From contig JAICWH010000007.1 of NCBI GenBank assembly GCA_025934895.1, positions 1 to 48,838 on the forward strand: a DNA stretch of 48,838 nt. The letters are read 5' to 3'. Below are positions 37,779 through 48,838 of this stretch, piece by piece (position 1 is the stretch's first letter; every line of letters starts with the position of its first letter). Both the position numbers and the translations under genes were made by a program. This DNA comes from Nocardioidaceae bacterium (GTDB lineage Bacteria; Actinomycetota; Actinomycetes; Propionibacteriales; Nocardioidaceae). The notes under the pieces were generated by a model, which was not told where the DNA came from, did no database searches, and saw only the letters and a list, made by a program, of their open reading frames with translations.

Positions 37779-38602
37779 CCCCCCGCCCTGTCGAGGGCGG
37801 GCCGGTTGAAGGAGTCGGTCGCGAACGGACCACCGACGTGAGCCGCCTCGGCAGCGTCCCGGTCCGGGTCGTCCGAGGCGGCCAGCACCTGCTCGGCGAA
37901 CCGTTCCGCGTCGTCCTCGGGGTGGTAGCCCAGGGCCCGGCCCGGGCCGAGGTCCCACCAGCCGCGGGTGTTGTCCGAGACGCCGTAGAGCACCGCGAAC
38001 CCGGGGTCCGGCGCGGTCAGGCAGGCCTGGACCATCCGCACCGCGTCGTCGTGGGACAGCCACGTCGACAGGGCGCGAGGGCTCTCGGGCTGTGGGAGGA
38101 AGCTGCCGATGCGGGTGGCGACCGCGTCGATCCCATGGCGGTCCGCGTAGAGACTGAGCAGCGCCTCGGCTGCGACCTTGGCGACTCCGTAGAACGTGTC
38201 CGGCCGCGGCCGGGTCTCCACCGGGAGCAGGTCGCTGCGCGGAGTCCGGCCCACCGCGTGGTTGCTGCTGGCATACACGATCCGGGTGACCCCGTGGGTG
38301 ACCATCGCGTCCAGGAGTGCCGCCGTGGTGACCACGTGCGACGTCAGCTCGTCGGTCAGCGACGACTCGCTCGGCCGGCCGGCCAGGTGGACGACGGCGT
38401 CCAGGGAGCCCGATGATGACAGGCCCGCGAAGACCGCCTCGACGGCATCGGGGTCAGCGCAGTCGGCCGTGAACCACTGGCCGGTGAAGCCCTCCTGCTC
38501 GGGGACCAGGTCGAGGCCGGCGACGTCGTGCCCCCGGTCGACGAGCCCGCTGCAGACCACGGTGCCGATGCTGCCGGCGGCGCCGCTGACGAGTACGCGC
38601 AT
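37775..38602 (-). CDS. NAD-dependent epimerase/dehydratase, uronate dehydrogenase-like
   Basis: A 275-residue extended short-chain dehydrogenase. The nucleotide fold is GAAGSIG (7-13), with S112/S113 in YASSNHAVG and Y138/K142 (YGVAK) as catalytic residues. The stretch STWLSHDDAVRMVQ and the ending VLYGVSDNTRGWWDLG closely resemble uronate dehydrogenases, which oxidise glucuronate or galacturonate to the aldarolactone. ATG 38602 lies 6 nt after TACGGT (leaderless). It forms an operon with the mutase by ATGA overlap. The true substrate in this setting is uncertain. Confidence 0.87.
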   Translation of the reverse strand: MRVLVSGAAGSIGTVVCSGLVDRGHDVAGLDLVPEQEGFTGQWFTADCADPDAVEAVFAGLSSSGSLDAVVHLAGRPSESSLTDELTSHVVTTAALLDAMVTHGVTRIVYASSNHAVGRTPRSDLLPVETRPRPDTFYGVAKVAAEALLSLYADRHGIDAVATRIGSFLPQPESPRALSTWLSHDDAVRMVQACLTAPDPGFAVLYGVSDNTRGWWDLGPGRALGYHPEDDAERFAEQVLAASDDPDRDAAEAAHVGGPFATDSFNRPALDRAGG

Positions 38603-38608
38603 GCGTGC

Positions 38609-38614
38609 ACCGTA
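38609..38614 (-). promoter_or_regulatory. -10-like hexamer, leaderless dehydrogenase/mutase operon
   Basis: TACGGT on the minus strand ends 6 nt before ATG 38602. It is divergent from the promoter of the acyl-CoA ligase, 37 bp away. Confidence 0.5.
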
Positions 38615-38651
38615 GAGCATCCGGGTGGTTGTGGCCGGTTGTGTCGTAGGT

Positions 38652-38657
38652 CACACT
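38652..38657 (+). promoter_or_regulatory. -10-like hexamer, leaderless acyl-CoA ligase
   Basis: CACACT ends 6 nt before ATG 38664. The hexamer is weaker than the others (first base C). Confidence 0.35.
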
Positions 38658-38663
38658 GCGGTC

Positions 38664-40232
38664 ATGACCGCACCCCTGCCGCTGTACGTCGACGACCGGC
38701 TCGGCCACTGGGCCGCGGAGACACCCGACGCGGAGGCGATGACCTACGGCGGCCGGACCTGGACCTGGTCGGAGTGGAACGACCGGGTGCGCCGGGCCGC
38801 GGGAGGCCTGCAGGCACTGGGCGTCGGTCGCGGGGACGTGGTCGCGTTCCTCGACAAGAACCACCCGGCGTGCGTGGAGGTCAGCCTCGCCGCCGGCTCG
38901 CTGGGGGCCGCCAACGCCATCGTCAACTGGCGCTCGGCCGTCGACGAGGTCGACTACGCCGTCAACGACAGTGGTGCCCGGGTGCTGTTCGTGGGCAGCG
39001 AGATGAGACCGACCCTGGACAAGGTGCGCGACCGGCTGGTGTCCGTGGAGGACGTCCTCGAGGTGACCCCCGAGGGGGCCGCGGGCGACGAGTACGAAGC
39101 CTGGCTGCGCTCCTCCTCGCCGGTCGGTCGCCCCGAGGACGTGCAGCCTGACGACGTCTGCCTGGTGATGTACTCCTCCGGCACGACCGGGCGGCCCAAG
39201 GGCGTGATGCTGACCCACACCAACCTGGTCCGGCACAGCATCGCCGCCCATGACGGCTGGAGCTTCGAGCCGGGTGACAAGAACCTCGTCGCGATGCCGC
39301 TGTTCCACGTCGGCGGGTCGTCGTACGTCCTGTTCGGCATCCACGACGGCATCCCCAGCGTCATCACGCGCGAGCCGGACGGCGCCTCCCTGGCCGGCGC
39401 CATCACGGCGGGCGCCAACCGGACCTTCCTGGTCCCGGCCGTCCTCGCAGGTGTGCTGCAGAACGGGCCGGACGCGGTCCGGGTGTTCAGTGGGCTGCGC
39501 AGCTTCACGTACGGCGCCTCGCCGATGCCGCTGCCGCTGCTGAGGGCCGCGATGCAAGCGTGGCCGGAGACCGACTTCATCCAGGTCTACGGGTTGACCG
39601 AGGTGGCCGGAGTGGCCACCCACCTGATGCCGGACGCGCACCGAGACGCGGAGCACCCGGAGCGGTTGCTGTCGGCCGGCCGGCCGGTGCCGGGCGTCGA
39701 GGTACGCATCGTCGACCCGGCCACCCGGCTGGACGTGCCCGTCGGCGAGCGCGGCGAGATCTGGCTGCGGACCGCGCAGCTGATGAAGGGGTTCCTCGGC
39801 AAGCCGGAGGAGACGGCGGCCGTCGTCACCGAGGACGGCTGGTTCCGCACCGGCGACCTCGGCCGCGTGGACGAGGACGGCTTCGTGTTCGTGCAGGACC
39901 GCCTCAAGGACCTGATCATCAGCGGCGGCGAGAACATCTACTCCCCCGAGGTGGAGCGAGTGCTCGCCGAGCACCCAGCCGTCCAGGAGGTCGCCGTCAT
40001 CGGGGTCCCCGACGACACCTGGGGCGAGACGGTGAAGGCGGTGGTGGTACTGCGCCCGGGTGCCCACGTCGACGAGGCGGAGCTGGTCGCGTGGTGCCGG
40101 GACCGGCTGGCGCACTTCAAGTGCCCGCGAACGGTCGACCTGGTCGCCGCGCTGCCCCGCAACGCCACCGGCAAGGTCCTCAAGCGCGAGCTCCGCAAGC
40201 CGTTCTGGGCCGGCCGGGACCGCGCCGTCTGA
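38664..40232 (+). CDS. Acyl-CoA ligase (AMP-forming)
   Basis: A 522-residue ANL-superfamily enzyme that adenylates a carboxylic acid and transfers it to CoA. The P-loop-like YSSGTTGRPKG, the A5 motif VYGLTEVAG, the A7/A8 segment WFRTGDLGRVDEDG-F-V-F-V-Q-D-R-L-K-D and the C-terminal lysine in NATGKVLKRELR are all present. It most resembles fatty acyl or aryl-CoA ligases, and chain length cannot be read from the sequence. It is transcribed alone, and a 32-bp tandem repeat follows its stop. Confidence 0.92.
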   Translation: MTAPLPLYVDDRLGHWAAETPDAEAMTYGGRTWTWSEWNDRVRRAAGGLQALGVGRGDVVAFLDKNHPACVEVSLAAGSLGAANAIVNWRSAVDEVDYAVNDSGARVLFVGSEMRPTLDKVRDRLVSVEDVLEVTPEGAAGDEYEAWLRSSSPVGRPEDVQPDDVCLVMYSSGTTGRPKGVMLTHTNLVRHSIAAHDGWSFEPGDKNLVAMPLFHVGGSSYVLFGIHDGIPSVITREPDGASLAGAITAGANRTFLVPAVLAGVLQNGPDAVRVFSGLRSFTYGASPMPLPLLRAAMQAWPETDFIQVYGLTEVAGVATHLMPDAHRDAEHPERLLSAGRPVPGVEVRIVDPATRLDVPVGERGEIWLRTAQLMKGFLGKPEETAAVVTEDGWFRTGDLGRVDEDGFVFVQDRLKDLIISGGENIYSPEVERVLAEHPAVQEVAVIGVPDDTWGETVKAVVVLRPGAHVDEAELVAWCRDRLAHFKCPRTVDLVAALPRNATGKVLKRELRKPFWAGRDRAV

Positions 40233-40238
40233 CCCCCT

Positions 40239-40330
40239 CCCCGCCGACCCGGCGCGTCCGCAGGCGCAAACCCCGCCGACCCGGCGCCTCCGCAGGCGCA
40301 AACCCCGCCGACCCGGCGCGTCCGCAGGGG
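40239..40330. repeat. 32-bp tandem repeat, locus B
   Basis: Two full 32-bp units (40239-40270, 40271-40302) and most of a third (40303-40330), between the convergent acyl-CoA ligase and PNP genes. The shared core GACCCGGCGCGTCCGCAGG is the reverse complement of the core at locus A. There are no spacers, so it is not a CRISPR array. Confidence 0.92.
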
Positions 40331-41134
40331 CTATACCCGGGGGAGCACCCGGCTCAGCAGCTCACCCATCCGTGCGGCTGCCGCGCGCCCGGCCTCCAGG
40401 ACCTCCCGGTGGGCGAGGGGCTCCCCGGTGATACCCGCGGCCAGGTTCGTGACCAGCGAGATCCCCAGCACCTCGAGGCCCGCCTCCCGCGCCGCGATCG
40501 CCTCCAGGCCTGTCGACATCCCGACCAGGTCACCACCGATGGCACGGACCATCCGAATCTCCGCCGGGGTCTCGTAGTGAGGTCCGCGGAACTGCACGTA
40601 GACGCCCTCGGGCAGGTCCGGCTCCACCTCACGGCACAGCGCCCGCAGACGACGGCTGTAGAGGTCGGTGAGGTCCACGAAGCTTGCGCCCTCCACAGGA
40701 GAGGTGGCCGTCAGGTTGACGTGGTCGCTGATCAGCACCGGCGTCCCCGGCAGCCAGGCCTCGTCGAGCCCGCCGCAGCCGTTCGTGAGCACGACCACGA
40801 GGCAGCCCGCCGCTGCGGCTGTCCGGACACCGTGCACGACCGGCCGTACCCCGACGCCCTCATAGAGGTGGGTGCGGCCCATCAGCACGAGCAGGTTGCG
40901 GTCGCCGGCGCGGACCGAGCGGATCCGGCCGGCATGGCCCGCCACCGTGGGCCGCGCGAACCCGGGCAGGTCCGTCGTGCTCAGCTCTGCGGTCGGCTCA
41001 CCCAGCGCGTCGACCGCAGGGAGCCACCCCGATCCCAGGACCACGGCGACGTCGTGCGAACGGACGCCGGTGCGATCCCGGAGTACGGCGGCCGCATCGG
41101 CGGCGAGGGCTGCCGGGGAGGTGGCGTGGGTCAC
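40331..41134 (-). CDS. punA: Purine nucleoside phosphorylase (trimeric class)
   Basis: A 267-residue class I phosphorylase that cleaves inosine and guanosine (and deoxy forms) with phosphate. Motifs are VVLGSGW with the phosphate-binding serine, GRTHLYEG, the base-binding region [14 protein letters not shown], and [15 protein letters not shown]. Adenosine must first pass through Add, whose gene lies at 28 kb. The GTG start at 41134 overlaps the stop of the cyclotransferase-like gene (GTGA). Confidence 0.96.
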
Positions 41135-41583
41135 AGGCCGATGGACCGGCAGGGGAGGGCCCGCAACGCATCGACGTAGTCCTGCGGTGCATCGGCAGCC
41201 TCCGCGGCGTCAGCGAGGATCCCGACATAGCTGGCGGACGGCAGTCCGCCTTCGTAGGCGTCGAGCACGTAGGCCCACGCGAGGAGCTCGCCGAGCATCG
41301 TCGAGACCCGGACCCTGGTCTTGCGGTAGAGCCCCGTGTCGGCACTCTCCAGGACGTCGAGGTGCGAGACGTCCTCGTCCGTCACGTCGTAGATGGCCAC
41401 GAACACCTGCTCGATCGGGTCCTCGACGATGGTGGGCAGGGCGCCGTCCCACCCGTGCTCCTCGCCACCGAAGGTGAGGCGCCATCCAGTGAGCCATCCG
41501 GTGGTGCGCAACGGCGAGTGCGGGCATCGCGAGCTCATCCGTCGGGGGTCCATGTTGGACCCGAAGGCGGCGTACAGAGGCAC
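41131..41583 (-). CDS. Gamma-glutamylcyclotransferase-like protein
   Basis: A 150-residue protein of the GGCT/AIG2-like fold, which in characterised members releases 5-oxoproline from gamma-glutamyl compounds. The N-terminal [13 protein letters not shown] is the family substrate-binding loop. [20 protein letters not shown] provides the acidic residue (Glu in LES) expected as the catalytic base, and AWAYVLDAY is the typical late strand. GTG 41583 lies 6 nt after TAGGCT (leaderless). It is coupled to PNP by a GTGA overlap. Substrate not established. Confidence 0.85.
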
Positions 41584-41589
41584 GGCCGC

Positions 41590-41595
41590 AGCCTA
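41590..41595 (-). promoter_or_regulatory. -10-like hexamer, leaderless cyclotransferase/PNP operon
   Basis: TAGGCT on the minus strand ends 6 nt before GTG 41583. Confidence 0.5.
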
Positions 41596-41640
41596 GGGCA
41601 TCTCGAGCCGTGGTCCGCACATCGCACTTCTTTTGCGATG

Positions 41641-43050
41641 ATGACCCGTGTGAACCGTGTGGTGGTGGTCGGAGGCGGGCCCGGCGGCTACGAGGCTGCG
41701 CTGGTAGCGGCACAGCTCGAGGCCGACGTCACCGTCGTTGACACCGACGGCATCGGCGGCTCGGCCGTCCTGACCGACTGTGTGCCGAGCAAGACGCTGA
41801 TTGCGACGGCCGAGCTAATGGCGGAGATGGAGGAGGCCGATGAGCTCGGGATCCGGGCCACGGGGGTCGACCAGGGCCTGAGAGCCGACCTGCACCGCGT
41901 CAACGTCCGGGTCAAGCGCCTGGCGCTCGCCCAGTCCTCCGACATCGAGGCTCGACTGACAAGGGAAGGGGTGCGGGTGCTGCGGGCCCGGGCCCGGCTC
42001 GACGGGCCCCAGCGGGTGGTGGCGACGCTGACCGGGGGGTCCGGTCAGGACGGCGCGGAGGAGTCCCTGGAGGCGGACGCGATCCTGGTCGCGACCGGTG
42101 CCGCGCCGCGCACGCTGGAGTCGGCCCGCCCGGACGGCGAGCGGATCCTCTCCTGGGAGCAGGTCTACGACCTGCACGAGGTTCCCGAGAAGCTGATCGT
42201 CGTCGGTTCCGGAGTCACCGGCGCCGAGTTCGCGAGTGCCTACAACGCTCTCGGCGTCGATGTCACGCTCGTCTCCAGCCGGGACCGCGTGCTGCCTGGC
42301 GAGGACGCGGATGCCGCGGAGGTCCTCGAGCAGGTGTTCAAGCGCCGCGGGATGACGGTCCTGGGACGGTCCCGGATGGAGTCGGTGGACCGTGACGGGG
42401 ACTCGGTCACCGTGACCCTCACCGACGGCCGCAGCGTGGTCGGGTCGCACTGCCTGCTGGCCCTGGGGTCGGTGCCGAACACTGCGGACATGGGGCTGGA
42501 GACGGCCGGCGTAGACCTCGGCAACGGCGGGTTCGTCACCGTGGACAGGGTCTCCCGTACGTCGGCCCGCGGCGTCTATGCGGCGGGCGACTGCACCGGC
42601 GTACTCATGCTCGCGTCGGTCGCCGCCATGCAGGGCCGGATCGCGATGTGGCACTTCCTCGGCGACGCCGTCGCCCCGCTCAACCTGCGGGCCGTCTCCT
42701 CCAACGTGTTCACCGCCCCGGAGATCGCCACCGTCGGCTGGACGCAGAACGAGGTGGACGCCGGCAGCATCGCGGCCGAGAGCTTCACGCTGCAGCTCTC
42801 GGGGAACCCGCGCGCCAAGATGCAGGGCGTGCGGGACGGTTTCGTCAAGCTCTTCGCCCGGCCTGGCACCGGCATCGTCGTGGGCGGCGTCGTCGTCGGT
42901 CCCCGCGCCTCGGAGCTGATCCACCCGGTCGCGATCGCGGTCTCCCAGAGCCTCACCGCGGACGAGCTGGCGCACGCGTTCACGGTGTACCCCTCGATGA
43001 GCGGCTCGGTCGCCGAGACCGCCCGACGGCTCCACCGCTTCCGCACCTGA
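41641..43050 (+). CDS. lpdA: NAD(P)H-quinone dehydrogenase, LpdA-type flavoprotein
   Basis: A 469-residue flavoprotein of the dihydrolipoamide dehydrogenase family. The FAD fold is VVVGGGPGGYEAA, the NAD(P) fold is VVGSGVTGAEFASAY, and YAAGDCTG binds FAD. The redox pair is broken: only C47 of TDCVPSK remains and the partner cysteine position is A42. The C-terminal HxxxxE motif is also missing. This pattern matches mycobacterial LpdA (Rv3303c), a quinone reductase rather than a lipoamide enzyme, found beside the same genes. Two adjacent ATGs occur (41638, 41641); GTG 41650 is a third option. Confidence 0.93.
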   Translation: MTRVNRVVVVGGGPGGYEAALVAAQLEADVTVVDTDGIGGSAVLTDCVPSKTLIATAELMAEMEEADELGIRATGVDQGLRADLHRVNVRVKRLALAQSSDIEARLTREGVRVLRARARLDGPQRVVATLTGGSGQDGAEESLEADAILVATGAAPRTLESARPDGERILSWEQVYDLHEVPEKLIVVGSGVTGAEFASAYNALGVDVTLVSSRDRVLPGEDADAAEVLEQVFKRRGMTVLGRSRMESVDRDGDSVTVTLTDGRSVVGSHCLLALGSVPNTADMGLETAGVDLGNGGFVTVDRVSRTSARGVYAAGDCTGVLMLASVAAMQGRIAMWHFLGDAVAPLNLRAVSSNVFTAPEIATVGWTQNEVDAGSIAAESFTLQLSGNPRAKMQGVRDGFVKLFARPGTGIVVGGVVVGPRASELIHPVAIAVSQSLTADELAHAFTVYPSMSGSVAETARRLHRFRT

Positions 43051-43063
43051 TCCGAGGTAGGAC

Positions 43064-43993
43064 TCAGAAGCCGCCGAAGTCCCCGCCGCCGCCGAAGTCC
43101 CCGCCGCCGAGGTCGAATCCGCCGCCGTCACCGCCGCCGAACCCGAAGTTCCCGCCGTCCCCTCCACCGAAGTCGAGGTCCCCGCCTCCGTCGTACCCGT
43201 CGTACCCGCCGTCGCCGGAGTCGCCGCCACCCGAGTCGCCGCCACCCGAGTCGCCGCCGTCACCCGGGTCCCCGTCGCCGAAGTCGCCGTCGCCGCCGTA
43301 GAAGCCGTCGCCACCGATGCCGTCCCAGCCGGGCGACAGCATGGTCGCCAGCATGAACCCGGGCAGCAGTCCGGAGAGCGCGTAGCCGCCGAAGTAGCCG
43401 GACGCCCAGGGCGAGTACGCCGGACCGCCCTGCCAGTAGGGCACCCGACCGGCACCCTGCTGGATGGTGCGGACGTCCGGCTCGGCGCCCTGCTGCACCC
43501 GGTCCGCGTCGGCGGCGCACACCGGCACCTGCCGAGGCTGGCCTCCGGGAGGTGCCCACTGGATGTCCGTCGTGGACGGACCGTGGGCAGGGTTGAAGAA
43601 GCACGGGGGGCGACGGGTCGGGAGCGGGCGGCCGGCCACCCTGGCTCGCACGCACGCCTCTGCGTAGCGACCGTCCTCGAGTGCCTCGGTGACGTGCTTG
43701 ATCTCCTCTGACCTGGTCACCCGGGCCAGGGACTCCTTCGCCGACTCGTAGGAGTCCAGAGCCCGCTGGTAGTCCTGCCGCGTCGCCTCGTCGAGCCGTT
43801 CGGTGAGCAGGTCGCTGTCGAGGCGCTGAAGCTCCTCACCGAAACGGGTGACGTCCTCGTCGGCGACCCGGCGGACCGCCTCCAGGTCGGCGTTACGACG
43901 CTCCTCGAGAGCGCGCCTGTCCCGCCGGGCCCGCACCGCAGACATCGTGAGCAGCACGGCCGCGATGATCACGATGAGCGCCAGAAAGGTCAT
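43064..43993 (-). CDS. Membrane-anchored Gly/Asp-rich protein with Cys-pair motif
   Basis: A 309-residue protein with one N-terminal transmembrane helix (2-20). A charged coiled-coil-like part (20-118) follows, then a motif with two cysteines (C131 in CFFNPAHGP, C159 in VPVCAADA) that may bind metal or form a disulfide. The last 85 residues (225-309) are almost only Gly, Asp, Ser, Tyr and Phe in short repeats (GGGDS, GGGDFGG). I recall this layout from unnamed actinobacterial proteins but know no function. ATG 43993 lies 6 nt after TAACCT. It is convergent with lpdA (13-bp gap). Confidence 0.8.
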   Translation of the reverse strand: MTFLALIVIIAAVLLTMSAVRARRDRRALEERRNADLEAVRRVADEDVTRFGEELQRLDSDLLTERLDEATRQDYQRALDSYESAKESLARVTRSEEIKHVTEALEDGRYAEACVRARVAGRPLPTRRPPCFFNPAHGPSTTDIQWAPPGGQPRQVPVCAADADRVQQGAEPDVRTIQQGAGRVPYWQGGPAYSPWASGYFGGYALSGLLPGFMLATMLSPGWDGIGGDGFYGGDGDFGDGDPGDGGDSGGGDSGGGDSGDGGYDGYDGGGDLDFGGGDGGNFGFGGGDGGGFDLGGGDFGGGGDFGGF

Positions 43994-43999
43994 TACGTG

Positions 44000-44005
44000 A
44001 GGTTA
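44000..44005 (-). promoter_or_regulatory. -10-like hexamer, minus arm of bidirectional promoter
   Basis: TAACCT on the minus strand ends 6 nt before ATG 43993. It lies exactly 17 bp from the plus-strand hexamer at 44023-44028, so each hexamer occupies the -35 position of the other. Confidence 0.5.
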
Positions 44006-44022
44006 CCCGCAGTCCCGCAGAC

Positions 44023-44028
44023 CATACT
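44023..44028 (+). promoter_or_regulatory. -10-like hexamer, plus arm of bidirectional promoter
   Basis: CATACT ends 6 nt before ATG 44035. TACTGT, two bases further on, is an alternative hexamer. Confidence 0.45.
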
Positions 44029-44034
44029 GTGGCC

Positions 44035-45237
44035 ATGTCACCTCGCCCCCGGCTGTTGCTCGCCTGCCTCGCCGCCGCGGCCCCGCTGCTGCCCGCCGCT
44101 GCGCCACCCGTCGCGGCCGCGACCGCCGACCAGGTCTACCCGGTCCCCGCTGGGGGCAGGTACACGCTGCACGGTCACGGCTTCGGCCATGGTCACGGGA
44201 TGTCCCAGTACGGCGCCGCCGGGGCCGCGGTGCACGGTCTGGGCTACCGCGGGATCCTCCGCTTCTACTATCCGCGTACGTCGTCGGGCACGGCCGCGGG
44301 CCGCCTCCGGGTGCTGGTCACCTCCGACTCGACGCCGGACCTGGCGGTCAGCGCGGTCCCGGGGCTGGTGGTCCACGACCTGGGCTCGCGGTCGACGTAC
44401 CACCTGCCACGCATCGCGGGAGTCAGCCGGTGGCGGCTCAGCGCCGCCGGAGACCGGACCGTGGTCGGCTACTTCACGAAGGGCTGGCACCGCTACCGCC
44501 CCGGCGGGCGGCCGGCGCTGGTGGGCGACGGCCAGTTCGGGGCCCGCCGCCCGCTCACGCTGTGGACCCCCTCGGGTCGGCGCACCTATCGCGGCGGGCT
44601 GCGCGCCGCCTCGCCGACCCCAGGGTCGAGCACCCGGCGCACCGTGAACGTGGTGCCTGTCGAGGACTACGTGCGGGGCGTGGTGCCCGCGGAGATGCCG
44701 CCCTCGTGGAGGACCGAGGCCCTCAGGGCCCAGGCAGTCGCGGCCCGGACGTACGCCGTGTGGTCGCGTGCCCAGGCCCCGCGCCGCTACTGGCACATCT
44801 GTGACAGCCCGACGTGCCAGGTCTACCGCGGCGTCGACGGCGAGGACCCACGCGCCGACGCGGCCGTCACCGCGACCGCGCACCGCATCGTGACCTACCG
44901 CGGACGGGCTGCCTTCACCCAGTTCTCCGCCAGCAGCGGCGGCTATACGGCGGCGGGCGGGATGCCGTACCTCGTCGCCAAGCCCGACCCGTACGACGGC
45001 CTGACCGCCAACCCGGTGCACTCGTGGTCGACGGGGCTGAGCGCCAGCCGGATCCAGCACGCGTACCCCGGGATCGGCAGGCTGCACCGCCTGGTGGTGA
45101 CCCGCCGGGACGGGCACGGCCAGTGGGGTGGCCGGGTCCTCTCGATCAGGCTCGACGGGAGCCGCCGCACCGTCGGTGTCTCCGGCGACAGGTTCCGCTC
45201 GGTGTTCGGCCTACGCTCGACCTGGTTCACGCCCTGA
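44035..45237 (+). CDS. Secreted SpoIID/LytB-domain protein
   Basis: A 400-residue exported protein. A signal peptide covers about residues 1-29 (Ala/Leu-rich, cleavage near VAAATA). GHGFGHGHGMSQYGA (47-61) and the segment around E220 (VVPAEMPPSW), with QAVAARTYA, are hallmarks of the SpoIID domain, a lytic transglycosylase that cuts denuded glycan strands in sporulating Bacillus. C257 and C261 (CDSPTC) are the conserved pair. In non-sporulating actinobacteria the target is probably cell-wall peptidoglycan, but this is inferred. ATG 44035 is preferred to the GTG 44029. Confidence 0.9.
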   Translation: MSPRPRLLLACLAAAAPLLPAAAPPVAAATADQVYPVPAGGRYTLHGHGFGHGHGMSQYGAAGAAVHGLGYRGILRFYYPRTSSGTAAGRLRVLVTSDSTPDLAVSAVPGLVVHDLGSRSTYHLPRIAGVSRWRLSAAGDRTVVGYFTKGWHRYRPGGRPALVGDGQFGARRPLTLWTPSGRRTYRGGLRAASPTPGSSTRRTVNVVPVEDYVRGVVPAEMPPSWRTEALRAQAVAARTYAVWSRAQAPRRYWHICDSPTCQVYRGVDGEDPRADAAVTATAHRIVTYRGRAAFTQFSASSGGYTAAGGMPYLVAKPDPYDGLTANPVHSWSTGLSASRIQHAYPGIGRLHRLVVTRRDGHGQWGGRVLSIRLDGSRRTVGVSGDRFRSVFGLRSTWFTP

Positions 45238-45255
45238 CTCCCGCGGCGTCGCAGC

Positions 45256-48200
45256 TCAGGTGCTGAGCACCAGGACGAGGTCGCCGCCCTCGACCTGCTG
45301 GGTGCCGCCGAGCGCGAGCCGCTCCACCGAGCCGGCGACGGGTGCGGTGATGGACGCCTCCATCTTCATCGCCTCGATGGTCGCCACCGTGGCGCCTGCC
45401 TCGACCGTGTCGCCCTCGGCGACGACAATGGTGACGACCCCGTCGAAAGGCGCGGCCACCTGCCCCGGCTTGCTCGGGTCGGCACGCTCGGTGGTGGCGG
45501 CGTCCGCGGACACCGACCGGTCCCGCACGTTGATCGGCCGTAGCTGGCCGTTGATGGTGCACATCACCGTGCGGAAGCCGCGTTCGTCGGGGTCACTGAC
45601 CGCCTGCAGCCCGAAGAACAGCCGCTTTCCCTCCTCGAGGTCGACCTCGTGCTCCTCGCCCGTGCGCAGGCCGTAGAGGTAGTCCGAGGTGGGCAGGGCC
45701 GACAGGTCGCCGTACTTCTCCCGGGACTCGGCGAACGCGCCGGTCGGACCCGGGAACAGCAGTGCGTTGAGCGTCAGCCGGCGGTCGCTGTCCAGGCCCT
45801 TGCGCTGGTCGTCGTCCAGCTCGGTGACGGCGGGTTTGACCGTCCGCCCGGCGAGCGCCTTGGTCCGGAACGGCTCCGGCCAGCCGCCGGGCGGGTCGCC
45901 GAGGTCGCCGGAGAGGAACCCGATCACCGAGTCGGGGACGTCGAACCTGCCGGGGTCGTCGGCGAACTCCTTCGGGTCCGCGCCGACGGCGACCAGGTGC
46001 AGGGCGAGGTCGCCGACCACCTTGGAGGAGGGGGTGACCTTGACGATGTTGCCGAGGATGTCGTTGGCGGCGGCGTACATGTCCTCGATCTGCTCGAACT
46101 TCTCCCCGAGCCCGAGCGACACCGCCTGCTGACGCAGGTTGGAGAGCTGGCCGCCGGGAATCTCGTGGGTGTAGACGCGCCCGGTCGGCGAGGCCAGCCC
46201 CGACTCGAACGGCGCGTAGACCCGCCGGGTCGTCTCCCAGTAGGGCTCCAGGTCGCAGACCGCGTCCAGGTCCAGGCCGGTGGCTCGCTCGGTGTGGTCG
46301 GTGGCCGCCACCAGTGAGGACAGGGCCGGCTGCGAGGTCGTGCCGGCCATCGCCGCGCACGCGGCGTCCACCGCGTCCACGCCGGCGTCGATCGCGGCGA
46401 GCAGGGTCCCGAGCTGACCGCCGGGCGTGTCGTGGGTGTGCAGGTGGACGGGCAGGTCGAAGCGGTCCCGCAGCGCGCCGACCAGGGTGCGGGCCGCGGG
46501 GGCCCGCAGCAGGCCGGCCATGTCCTTGATCGCCAGGACGTGCGCGCCCGCCTCGACGATCCGCTCGGCCAGGGCGAGGTAGTAGTCGAGGGTGTAGATC
46601 CTCTCGTCCGGGCTGGACAGGTCACCGGTGTAGCACAGCGCGACCTCAGCGACGGTGGTCCCCGTGCCCCGCACCGCCTCGATGGCCGGGCGCATCTGCT
46701 CCACGTCGTTGAGGGCGTCGAAGATCCGGAACACGTCGATGCCGGAGTCGGCGGCCTCCGAGATGAACGCCTCGGTCACCTCGGTCGGGTACGGCGTGTA
46801 GCCGACCGTGTTGCGGCCGCGCAGCAGCATCTGCAAGCAGATGTTCGGGACCGCCTGCCGCAGCTTGTCCAGGCGCTCCCACGGGTCCTCGGACAGGAAC
46901 CGCAATGAGACGTCGTACGTCGCACCGCCCCATGCCTCCAGGCTCCACAGCTGCGGCGTCAGGCGCGCGACGTGACCGCCGACGGCGACCAGGTCGCGGG
47001 TGCGGACCCGGGTCGCCAGCAGCGACTGGTGGGCGTCGCGGAAGGTGGTGTCCGTGACGGCGACGGCCTGCTGGTCGCGCAGGGCCCGGGCGAAGCCCTC
47101 CGGCCCGGCCGCCAGAAGGGCCTGGCGGGTGCCGTCCGGAGCCGGCACCGCGAGGTCGAGCGGGGGCAGCTTGCTGACCGGGTCGACGCTGACGGGCGCC
47201 GCGCCGTGCGGCTGGTTGACGGTGACGTCGGCGAGGTAGGTCAGCAGCTTGGTGCCGCGGTCCGCCGAGGACCGTGCGGTGAGCAGCTGCGGGTGCTCCT
47301 CGATGAACGCCGTGGTGATGTGGCCGGACCGGAAGTCCGGGTCGTCCAGCACCGCCTGCAGGAACGGGATGTTCGTGGACACTCCACGGATCCGGAACTC
47401 CGCGACCGCTCGGCGGGCGCGGGCGACAGCGGTGGCGAAGTCCCGTCCGCGACAGGTCAGCTTGGCCAGCATCGAGTCGAAGTGGGCGCTGACCTCGGTG
47501 CCGGAATAGGTCGTGCCGCCGTCGAGCCGGACCCCCGCACCGCCGGGGGACCGGTAGGTGGTGATCATGCCGGTGTCCGGCCGGAAGCCGTTGGCCGGGT
47601 CCTCGGTGGTGATCCGGCACTGCAGCGCCGCGCCTCGGAGCACGAGGACGTCCTGGGAGAGCCCCAGGTCGGCCAGCGTCTCACCGGACGCGATCCGCAT
47701 CTGGGACTGCACCAGGTCGACGTCGGTGACCTCCTCGGTCACCGTGTGCTCGACCTGGATCCGTGGGTTCATCTCGATGAACACGTAGTTGCCGGCGGGG
47801 TCCAGGAGGAACTCGACCGTGCCGGCGTTGCGGTAGCCGATCTCGCTCGCGAACCGGACGGCGTCCGCGCACATCCGCTCCCGGATGGCCGGGTCGAGGT
47901 TGGGGGCCGGGGCGATCTCGACGACCTTCTGGTGCCGACGCTGGACCGAGCAGTCCCGCTCGAACAGGTGGATCACGCTGCCGACCGCGTCAGCGAGCAC
48001 CTGCACCTCGATGTGCCGCGGCTCCACCACGGCCTGCTCGATGAACACCGTCGGGTCCCCGAACGCGCCGTCGGCCTCCCGCATGCAGGTCTCCACCGCC
48101 GCCCGCAGGTCCTCGACCCGGTCCACCCGCCGCATCCCTCGGCCACCACCCCCGGAGACCGCCTTGACGAACAGCGGGAACGGCATCTCGGACGCCGACG

Positions 48201-48636
48201 CCACCAGGGCCTCGACGTCGGTGGACGGCTCGACCGACGCCAGCGTGGGCACGCCGGCAGCCTTCGCAGCGGCGATGGCGCGCGCCTTGTTGCCGGTCAG
48301 CGTCAGCACCTCGGCCGTCGGCCCGATGAACGTGATCCCGGCGTTGCTGCAAGCCTCTGCCAGCTGCGGGTTCTCGGAAAGGAACCCGTAGCCCGGGTAG
48401 ACCGCGTCCGCGCCGGCCCGCACCGCCGCCGCAACGATCATGTCCGGGTCCAGGTAGGCCCGCACCGGGTGCCCGCGCTCCCCGATCTCGTAAGCCTCGT
48501 CAGCCTTCAGCCGGTGCTCGGAGCCCCGGTCCTCGTGCGGGAACACCGCCACCGTCTGGGCACCCAGCTCGTAGGCCGCCCGGAACGCCCTGATCGCGAT
48601 CTCGCCACGGTTGGCCACCAGCACCTTGGAGAACAT
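45256..48636 (-). CDS. pyc: Pyruvate carboxylase
   Basis: A 1126-residue biotin enzyme that carboxylates pyruvate to oxaloacetate (anaplerosis). Biotin carboxylase spans about 1-455 (ATP loop SGGGGRGMR, ERDCSVQRRHQK, EMNPRIQVEH). Carboxyltransferase runs from about 540 (TDTTFRDAHQSLLATRVRT, metal-binding HLHTHDT, catalytic lysine in AIKDMAG), and the carrier domain ends the chain with K1091 in EAMKMEA. The length is normal for the single-chain form. ATG 48636 lies 7 nt after TAGCCT, with TTGCTT as -35. It is convergent with the SpoIID gene (18-bp gap). Confidence 0.97.
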   Translation of the reverse strand: MFSKVLVANRGEIAIRAFRAAYELGAQTVAVFPHEDRGSEHRLKADEAYEIGERGHPVRAYLDPDMIVAAAVRAGADAVYPGYGFLSENPQLAEACSNAGITFIGPTAEVLTLTGNKARAIAAAKAAGVPTLASVEPSTDVEALVASASEMPFPLFVKAVSGGGGRGMRRVDRVEDLRAAVETCMREADGAFGDPTVFIEQAVVEPRHIEVQVLADAVGSVIHLFERDCSVQRRHQKVVEIAPAPNLDPAIRERMCADAVRFASEIGYRNAGTVEFLLDPAGNYVFIEMNPRIQVEHTVTEEVTDVDLVQSQMRIASGETLADLGLSQDVLVLRGAALQCRITTEDPANGFRPDTGMITTYRSPGGAGVRLDGGTTYSGTEVSAHFDSMLAKLTCRGRDFATAVARARRAVAEFRIRGVSTNIPFLQAVLDDPDFRSGHITTAFIEEHPQLLTARSSADRGTKLLTYLADVTVNQPHGAAPVSVDPVSKLPPLDLAVPAPDGTRQALLAAGPEGFARALRDQQAVAVTDTTFRDAHQSLLATRVRTRDLVAVGGHVARLTPQLWSLEAWGGATYDVSLRFLSEDPWERLDKLRQAVPNICLQMLLRGRNTVGYTPYPTEVTEAFISEAADSGIDVFRIFDALNDVEQMRPAIEAVRGTGTTVAEVALCYTGDLSSPDERIYTLDYYLALAERIVEAGAHVLAIKDMAGLLRAPAARTLVGALRDRFDLPVHLHTHDTPGGQLGTLLAAIDAGVDAVDAACAAMAGTTSQPALSSLVAATDHTERATGLDLDAVCDLEPYWETTRRVYAPFESGLASPTGRVYTHEIPGGQLSNLRQQAVSLGLGEKFEQIEDMYAAANDILGNIVKVTPSSKVVGDLALHLVAVGADPKEFADDPGRFDVPDSVIGFLSGDLGDPPGGWPEPFRTKALAGRTVKPAVTELDDDQRKGLDSDRRLTLNALLFPGPTGAFAESREKYGDLSALPTSDYLYGLRTGEEHEVDLEEGKRLFFGLQAVSDPDERGFRTVMCTINGQLRPINVRDRSVSADAATTERADPSKPGQVAAPFDGVVTIVVAEGDTVEAGATVATIEAMKMEASITAPVAGSVERLALGGTQQVEGGDLVLVLST

Positions 48637-48643
48637 GGACAGC

Positions 48644-48671
48644 AGGCTAGTGGTCGGGACCGACAAAGCAA
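48644..48671 (-). promoter_or_regulatory. Promoter of pyc, predicted leaderless
   Basis: On the minus strand TTGCTT (48666-48671), a 16-bp spacer and TAGCCT (48644-48649) precede ATG 48636 by 7 nt. This is the most complete promoter in the window. Confidence 0.55.
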
Positions 48672-48705
48672 GACGGGGTCTCACGCTCGACAGCGAACGG
48701 TCCCG

Positions 48706-48838
48706 TCAGTCCTTGAGCTCGCAGATGACGGCGCCGCTGCTGATGCTGTCGCCCACCTCGGCGGACAGGCCGGTGACCGTGCCGGCACGGTGCGCCCGGA
48801 TGGGCTGCTCCATCTTCATCGCCTCGAGGACCACGATC
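48706..48838 (-). CDS. Biotin carboxyl carrier C-terminus of an acyl-CoA carboxylase (partial)
   Basis: The last 43 codons of a gene that enters from beyond the window edge. The reading IVVLEAMKMEQP contains the biotinylation motif EAMKME, and the chain ends in ICELKD then TGA. This is the carrier domain of an acetyl/propionyl-CoA carboxylase alpha subunit or a stand-alone carrier. It lies 69 bp upstream of pyc on the same strand. Related genomes have an accA-type gene next to lpdA and PNP (from memory), in favour of the alpha subunit. Confidence 0.85.
   Translation of the reverse strand, partial: IVVLEAMKMEQPIRAHRAGTVTGLSAEVGDSISSGAVICELKD

Follow-up and report, generated by a model that had tools for sequence, protein, structure and literature searches.

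The 41 bp that separate a membrane-protein gene from the divergent spoIID gene (positions 43994–44034 of the window, the whole 48,838-nucleotide stretch of Nocardioidaceae DNA analyzed here) probably hold two separate, back-to-back leaderless promoters, each reduced to a −10 hexamer and left after the loss of a palindromic control region that relatives carry. The pair looks ordinary in kind, a compact divergent promoter region with no special interlocked switch. The first-pass annotation had proposed an interlocked bidirectional promoter; as a functional or conserved arrangement this does not hold, given the poor −35 character of both hexamers, the variable spacing in relatives, and the lack of any preference for 17 bp.

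The Locus and Its Genes

The window corresponds to contig C132, one of the 247 contigs of a 3.9-Mb genome. The gene order around the junction is an lpd-like oxidoreductase gene, the membrane-protein gene on the minus strand, spoIID on the plus strand, and a pyruvate carboxylase gene on the minus strand. The membrane-protein gene (43064–43993, minus strand) encodes 309 amino acids with an N-terminal hydrophobic segment and a Gly-rich C-terminus, and its product has no family match in Pfam or NCBIfam. Relatives turn up in 181 of the 294 genomes of the family, and a genome often gives several matches; the protein represents an unnamed actinobacterial family. The N-terminal part of the protein is conserved, and its C-terminus is rich in Gly and Asp.

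The spoIID gene (44035–45237, plus strand) encodes a SpoIID/LytB domain protein of 400 amino acids when read from the ATG at 44035. The assignment is based on PF08486 (E 5.6e-29) and TIGR02669 (E 4.2e-55), both above cut-off; the equivalog model TIGR02870 gave 106.9 bits, under its cut-off of 234.75 bits. Judged by eye, the N-terminus resembles a signal peptide. The reading frame offers an alternative in-frame GTG start at 44029–44031 (plus strand), and neither this GTG nor the ATG at 44035 is preceded by a Shine-Dalgarno-like sequence.

Two −10-Like Hexamers in 41 bp

The divergent start codons are an ATG at 43993–43991 on the minus strand and an ATG at 44035–44037 on the plus strand. On the membrane-protein side, TAACCT (44000–44005, minus strand; AGGTTA on the plus strand) is a strict TANNNT 6 nt from the start codon. 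We took a TANNNT located 5–7 nt before the start as the mark of a leaderless promoter, and this hexamer implies a transcript beginning at 43993. On the spoIID side, CATACT (44023–44028, plus strand) also lies 6 nt before the ATG. It is sub-consensus, as the first T of TANNNT is missing. An alternative strict TANNNT, TACTGT (44025–44030, plus strand), overlaps CATACT, lies 4 nt before the ATG, and is the sole plus-strand TANNNT within 43900–44034. The two hexamers are 17 bp apart with CATACT and 19 bp apart if TACTGT is used instead. The letters, the coordinates, and the 17-bp gap had thus been read correctly in the first-pass annotation.

Such hexamers are infrequent at this position in the window. 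NANNNT occurs exactly 6 nt upstream of 11 of the 729 window ATGs (plus strand, 5/362; minus strand, 6/367), strict TANNNT exactly 6 nt upstream of four, and TANNNT 5–7 nt upstream of eight. The 43994–44034 junction is the sole CAT...ATG pair of the window at 28–59 bp with NANNNT 6 nt from both ATGs; two −10-like elements are therefore unlikely to be there by pure chance. The 17-bp gap is another matter. It follows by arithmetic from a 41-bp spacer minus 6 nt on both sides, hence is not an independent observation, and making this explicit guards against reading too much into a chance geometry.

A true interlock would have the sigma factor read each −10 a second time, as the −35 for transcription in the other direction, with 17 bp under selection and a single mutation affecting both genes. 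By position, each hexamer does sit where the −35 of the other would be, exactly 17 bp away, as had been pointed out. By sequence, this fails: scored as −35 elements against TTGACA, the two hexamers match at only 2/6 and 1/6 positions, and a scan for two-hexamer promoters over 38000–48838 found none (0.2 expected in shuffles).

Conservation of the Junction in Relatives

We collected 123 membrane-protein loci, of which 40 have an adjacent divergent spoIID gene, forming 32 distinct syntenic junctions including that of the window. The named relatives with the membrane protein belong mostly to the Nocardioidaceae and other Propionibacteriales, and the genus group of the window includes Nocardioides iriomotensis and several Nocardioidaceae MAGs. 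The suggested tie between the two genes is supported insofar as they are conserved divergent neighbors at 31 other distinct junctions. It is not general, as no divergent spoIID gene was seen at 75 distinct membrane-protein loci, some with flanks short enough for a more distant spoIID gene to be missed.

Conservation of the 41-bp spacing had been set beforehand as a test of the interlock. Among the 32 distinct syntenic junctions, only that of the window measures 41 bp; the other 31 range from 92 to 828 bp when the starts nearest the aligned position are used, and the five from the same genus measure 163, 262, 285, 309, and 344 bp. Start choice for spoIID in relatives is uncertain, being set by rule and not by experiment. 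When any ATG or GTG start was allowed, the five same-genus junctions still measured at least 87 bp, and only three of the 31 (L116, L117, and L118) could reach 45 bp or less; each of these three also has a Shine-Dalgarno-like start at 93–108 bp. As far as it can be tested by sequence comparison, the 41-bp arrangement is specific to the genome of the window. The closest relative by spoIID, G062 (66% identity), has one contig end that cuts spoIID near residue 20 and another that truncates the membrane protein at residue 196. Its junction falls between contigs, and the 41-bp spacing could therefore be shared by a small clade.

It is highly improbable that the short junction arose by misassembly or by a local deletion in the strain that was sequenced. 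The fragmentation of the assembly into 247 contigs, the longer junctions of all 31 relatives, and the gap in the G062 assembly over the same region would fit such an accident. Against it, both reading frames are intact up to their start codons, the −10 of the membrane-protein gene is intact, and the order lpd-like gene, membrane-protein gene, spoIID, pyc is complete and the same as in relatives.

The two sides of the junction differ in their conservation, and the claim of two leaderless genes holds for one of them. TANNNT is found 5–7 nt before the membrane-protein start at 19 of the 31 syntenic relatives and at 38 of the 75 other distinct loci, compared with 8 of 729 window ATGs, and this leaderless-type −10 is present in all five same-genus junctions. 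A leaderless promoter is very probable for the membrane-protein gene. On the spoIID side, a candidate start is preceded by a leaderless-type −10 in only one of the 31 relatives, the TANNNT equivalent of CATACT being absent in the other 30, and 24 of the 31 have a Shine-Dalgarno-like sequence before a candidate start. Random ATG/GTG positions gave a mean of 12.5 and a maximum of 21 such sequences in 500 draws; with this loose rule about half of the 24 are expected by chance, and the support is weaker than the raw count. These counts make a leaderless spoIID at most a property of the lineage of the window.

The same asymmetry bears on a reading in which the membrane-protein promoter alone is real, CATACT being a chance match and spoIID being transcribed from an upstream site, from within the membrane-protein gene, or by a different sigma factor. 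The missing first T of CATACT, the occurrence of NANNNT 5–7 nt before 29 of the 362 plus-strand ATGs of the window (8%), and a leaderless −10 in a single relative are all consistent with this reading. The leadered mRNA that it entails would be expected to carry a Shine-Dalgarno-like sequence, and the spoIID gene of the window starts without one. Nor does 43900–44034 contain any plus-strand TANNNT apart from TACTGT. We consider a single promoter rather unlikely, though it deserves to be kept in mind, and prefer two promoters of unequal strength.

Mirrored −10 Pairs across the Family

Mirrored TANNNT pairs located 6 nt from divergent ATGs were found at 83 sites in 61 family genomes, and 41 of these genomes have at least one; the reversed pattern gave 2 sites. 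The excess over the control indicates that compact divergent promoters of the leaderless type are common in the family. Among the matches listed (75 of the 83 sites), gap spacing is broad, a 17-bp gap occurs once, and 38 of the 75 sites have fewer than 41 bp between the start codons. The junction of the window had been described as close to the limit of compactness for a divergent pair. Both these sites and the genome of the window itself contradict this: in that genome, a 30-bp spacer carrying a strict TANNNT in each direction separates dapF from a divergent ABC ATPase gene (G000:C211:8489-8524; L136 1990-2025). The strict mirrored pattern misses the site of the window, and gave no site at gaps 16–18 in its genome.

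A larger search of 284 genomes recovered 87 mirrored sites at gaps 16–18 and 58 at gaps 10–12. Similarity clustering, at one threshold, took in 75 of the 87 sites at gaps 16–18 (the matches listed) and all 58 at gaps 10–12. It yielded 12, 13, and 10 clusters at gaps 16, 17, and 18, respectively, for the matches listed, and 11, 13, and 15 clusters at gaps 10, 11, and 12. The totals, 35 (matches listed) versus 39, show no favored value. An apparent preference for an 11-bp gap in the 61 genomes (9 of the 75 matches listed) disappeared after this clustering of the sites from 284 genomes.

One gap-17 cluster comprises 21 sites among the matches listed. The two of its sites that were read (L137 1982-2028; L138 2000-2046) separate an inositol-monophosphatase-family gene from a divergent DUF2231 gene, Pfam having been run on one. 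Such a spacing can therefore persist elsewhere in the family, unlike at the locus of the window, and this gene pair would suit a test of conserved compact divergent promoters better than the pair of the window. The persistence of the 21-site cluster and the exact 17-bp distance speak for an interlock. The absence of a 41-bp spacing from all 31 relatives, the unfavored gap of 17 both in the cluster counts and in the 61-genome scan, and the poor agreement with TTGACA make it very unlikely at the junction of the window.

A Palindrome and an MtrA-Like Box Precede Hydrolase Genes in Relatives

The longer junctions of relatives contain an element that the window lacks. The palindrome GAAYTACA-N4-TGTARTTC (up to two mismatches, no more than 300 bp from the membrane-protein start) lies between spoIID and the membrane-protein gene in 18 of the 31 syntenic relatives; forty permuted palindromes gave none. 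It is present in four of the five same-genus junctions and also in other genera. The remaining 13 relatives, including the same-genus G011, do not have it at the junction, and the window contains no match with up to three mismatches. Of 284 family genomes, 137 have exact copies, the reversed pattern being absent among the matches listed, and no copy was found in the 14 genomes searched from other families in the same order. The palindrome was considered as an operator of the membrane-protein gene, and this was set aside since none of the 75 membrane-protein loci lacking a divergent spoIID gene carries it (some of their flanks being short). It was also considered as a BldD box and tentatively set aside because of the odd spacing in the BldD consensus.

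The genes next to the palindrome point to the cell wall. We viewed 36 loci with an exact copy (8 + 28) and dropped two, L157 and L169, in which no gene was called. Where genes lay on both sides, the secreted-looking one was picked by eye before the Pfam scan, and only the picked genes were scanned. In the first set, leaving aside the spoIID locus L134, six of the seven adjoining genes encode a peptidoglycan-hydrolase domain: three Amidase_2, two Rv2525c-like, and one NlpC/P60, the exception being L128 with none. In the second set, 27 proteins that include L128 again, there were 14 Rv2525c-like glycoside hydrolases, 5 NlpC/P60, 4 Amidase_2, 1 Peptidase_M23, and 1 SpoIID, counts that may overlap when one protein belongs to several families; one DUF881 protein, not of a known hydrolase family, was also present. 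Examples are L134 (spoIID), L132 (Amidase_2), and L130 (Rv2525c-like), each with the palindrome at 1501–1520.

A second motif accompanies the palindrome. A direct-repeat box resembling the MtrA consensus GTNAC-N4-GTNAC, as given in PMC6265350, occurs with at most one mismatch within 65 bp of the palindrome on the side of the chosen gene at 27 of 34 loci. On the opposite side none of the 34 loci has one; the reversed pattern gave 3 of 34, and shuffles 0.58. Exact matches number 11 on the chosen side, 0 on the other side, 0 for the reversed pattern, and 0.02 in shuffles. Between spoIID and the membrane-protein gene, 16 of the 31 relatives have a box with at most one mismatch, a count made without control. 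The best match in the 41 bp of the window has three mismatches. Together, the palindrome and the MtrA-like box define a candidate cell-wall regulon of the Nocardioidaceae. A search of titles and abstracts found no paper on such a hydrolase-linked palindrome.

The genome of the window has three palindromes with one or two mismatches, near a DUF3263 gene, near a whiB-like gene, and at a site of unclear context. The first two are upstream of their genes (L032 1501-1520, one mismatch; L034 1501-1520, two mismatches). The DUF3263 and whiB-like genes are possible regulators of the palindrome regulon.

A Model for the 41-bp Junction

We propose that the junction carries two minimal actinobacterial promoters of the housekeeping type, each with a −10 hexamer and no −35. 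Each would fire an mRNA beginning at or beside the start codon. The minus-strand promoter would be that of the membrane-protein gene, leaderless and conserved, and the plus-strand promoter of spoIID a weaker one, lineage-specific as far as this can be tested. In relatives, the palindrome, perhaps with the MtrA-like box, may control spoIID; in the window, spoIID would start from what remained after its loss. Loss is the most parsimonious direction of change because the palindrome is present in four of the five same-genus junctions and in other genera, though 13 of the 31 relatives are without it as well.

RNA polymerase covers about 75 bp at a promoter. Since the implied start sites lie only 42 bp from each other, footprints would overlap and initiation should be mutually exclusive, the polymerases occluding each other sterically while neither hexamer acts as the −35 of the other. 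Occlusion of this kind needs no interlock, and would hold for any spacing of such size. One could go further and suppose that a two-factor region, palindrome plus MtrA-like box, was deleted and replaced by the face-to-face leaderless pair, so that polymerase competition and not two regulators sets the expression of SpoIID and the membrane protein. We regard this extension as conceivable yet doubtful.

The main interest of the pair in the window is that it probably represents a natural loss: the comparison exposes the conserved palindrome that relatives carry beside MtrA-like boxes before peptidoglycan-hydrolase genes. This hydrolase-linked module, a testable cell-wall regulon, is a more interesting lead than the promoter pair.

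Comparison with Known Systems

Titles and abstracts retrieved in a literature search described no leaderless interlocked promoter pair, and the search found no start-site map for Nocardioides. A close parallel is Mycobacterium tuberculosis. According to PMC3898074, 73% of its primary start sites have TANNNT upstream and no −35 motif was found, 26% of genes that have a primary start site are leaderless, and divergent promoters in close juxtaposition are a common feature. Like the leaderless TANNNT promoters described there, those of the window would have a −10 just before the start codon and neither a −35 nor a Shine-Dalgarno sequence. The difference is that only the membrane-protein side places a strict TANNNT at the customary distance, the spoIID side being sub-consensus.

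The junction also recalls the bidirectional promoters studied by Warman, Grainger, and colleagues (PMC12825309, PMC10268837), in which divergent transcription arises from a very short segment that two polymerases cannot bind together. As described in these reports, bidirectional promoters share one −10, with start sites mostly 18 bp apart and also 10 or 23 bp; they were counted at 7–25 bp between start sites (PMC10268837), and separate divergent promoters were not categorized as bidirectional (PMC12825309). With two separate −10s and implied start sites 42 bp apart, the pair in the window falls outside this shared-−10 definition and its 7–25 bp range. Finally, the junctions of relatives, 16 of 31 with GTNAC-N4-GTNAC, resemble the MtrA-controlled promoters of cell-wall hydrolases described in PMC6265350, unlike the 41 bp of the window, in which the box is absent.
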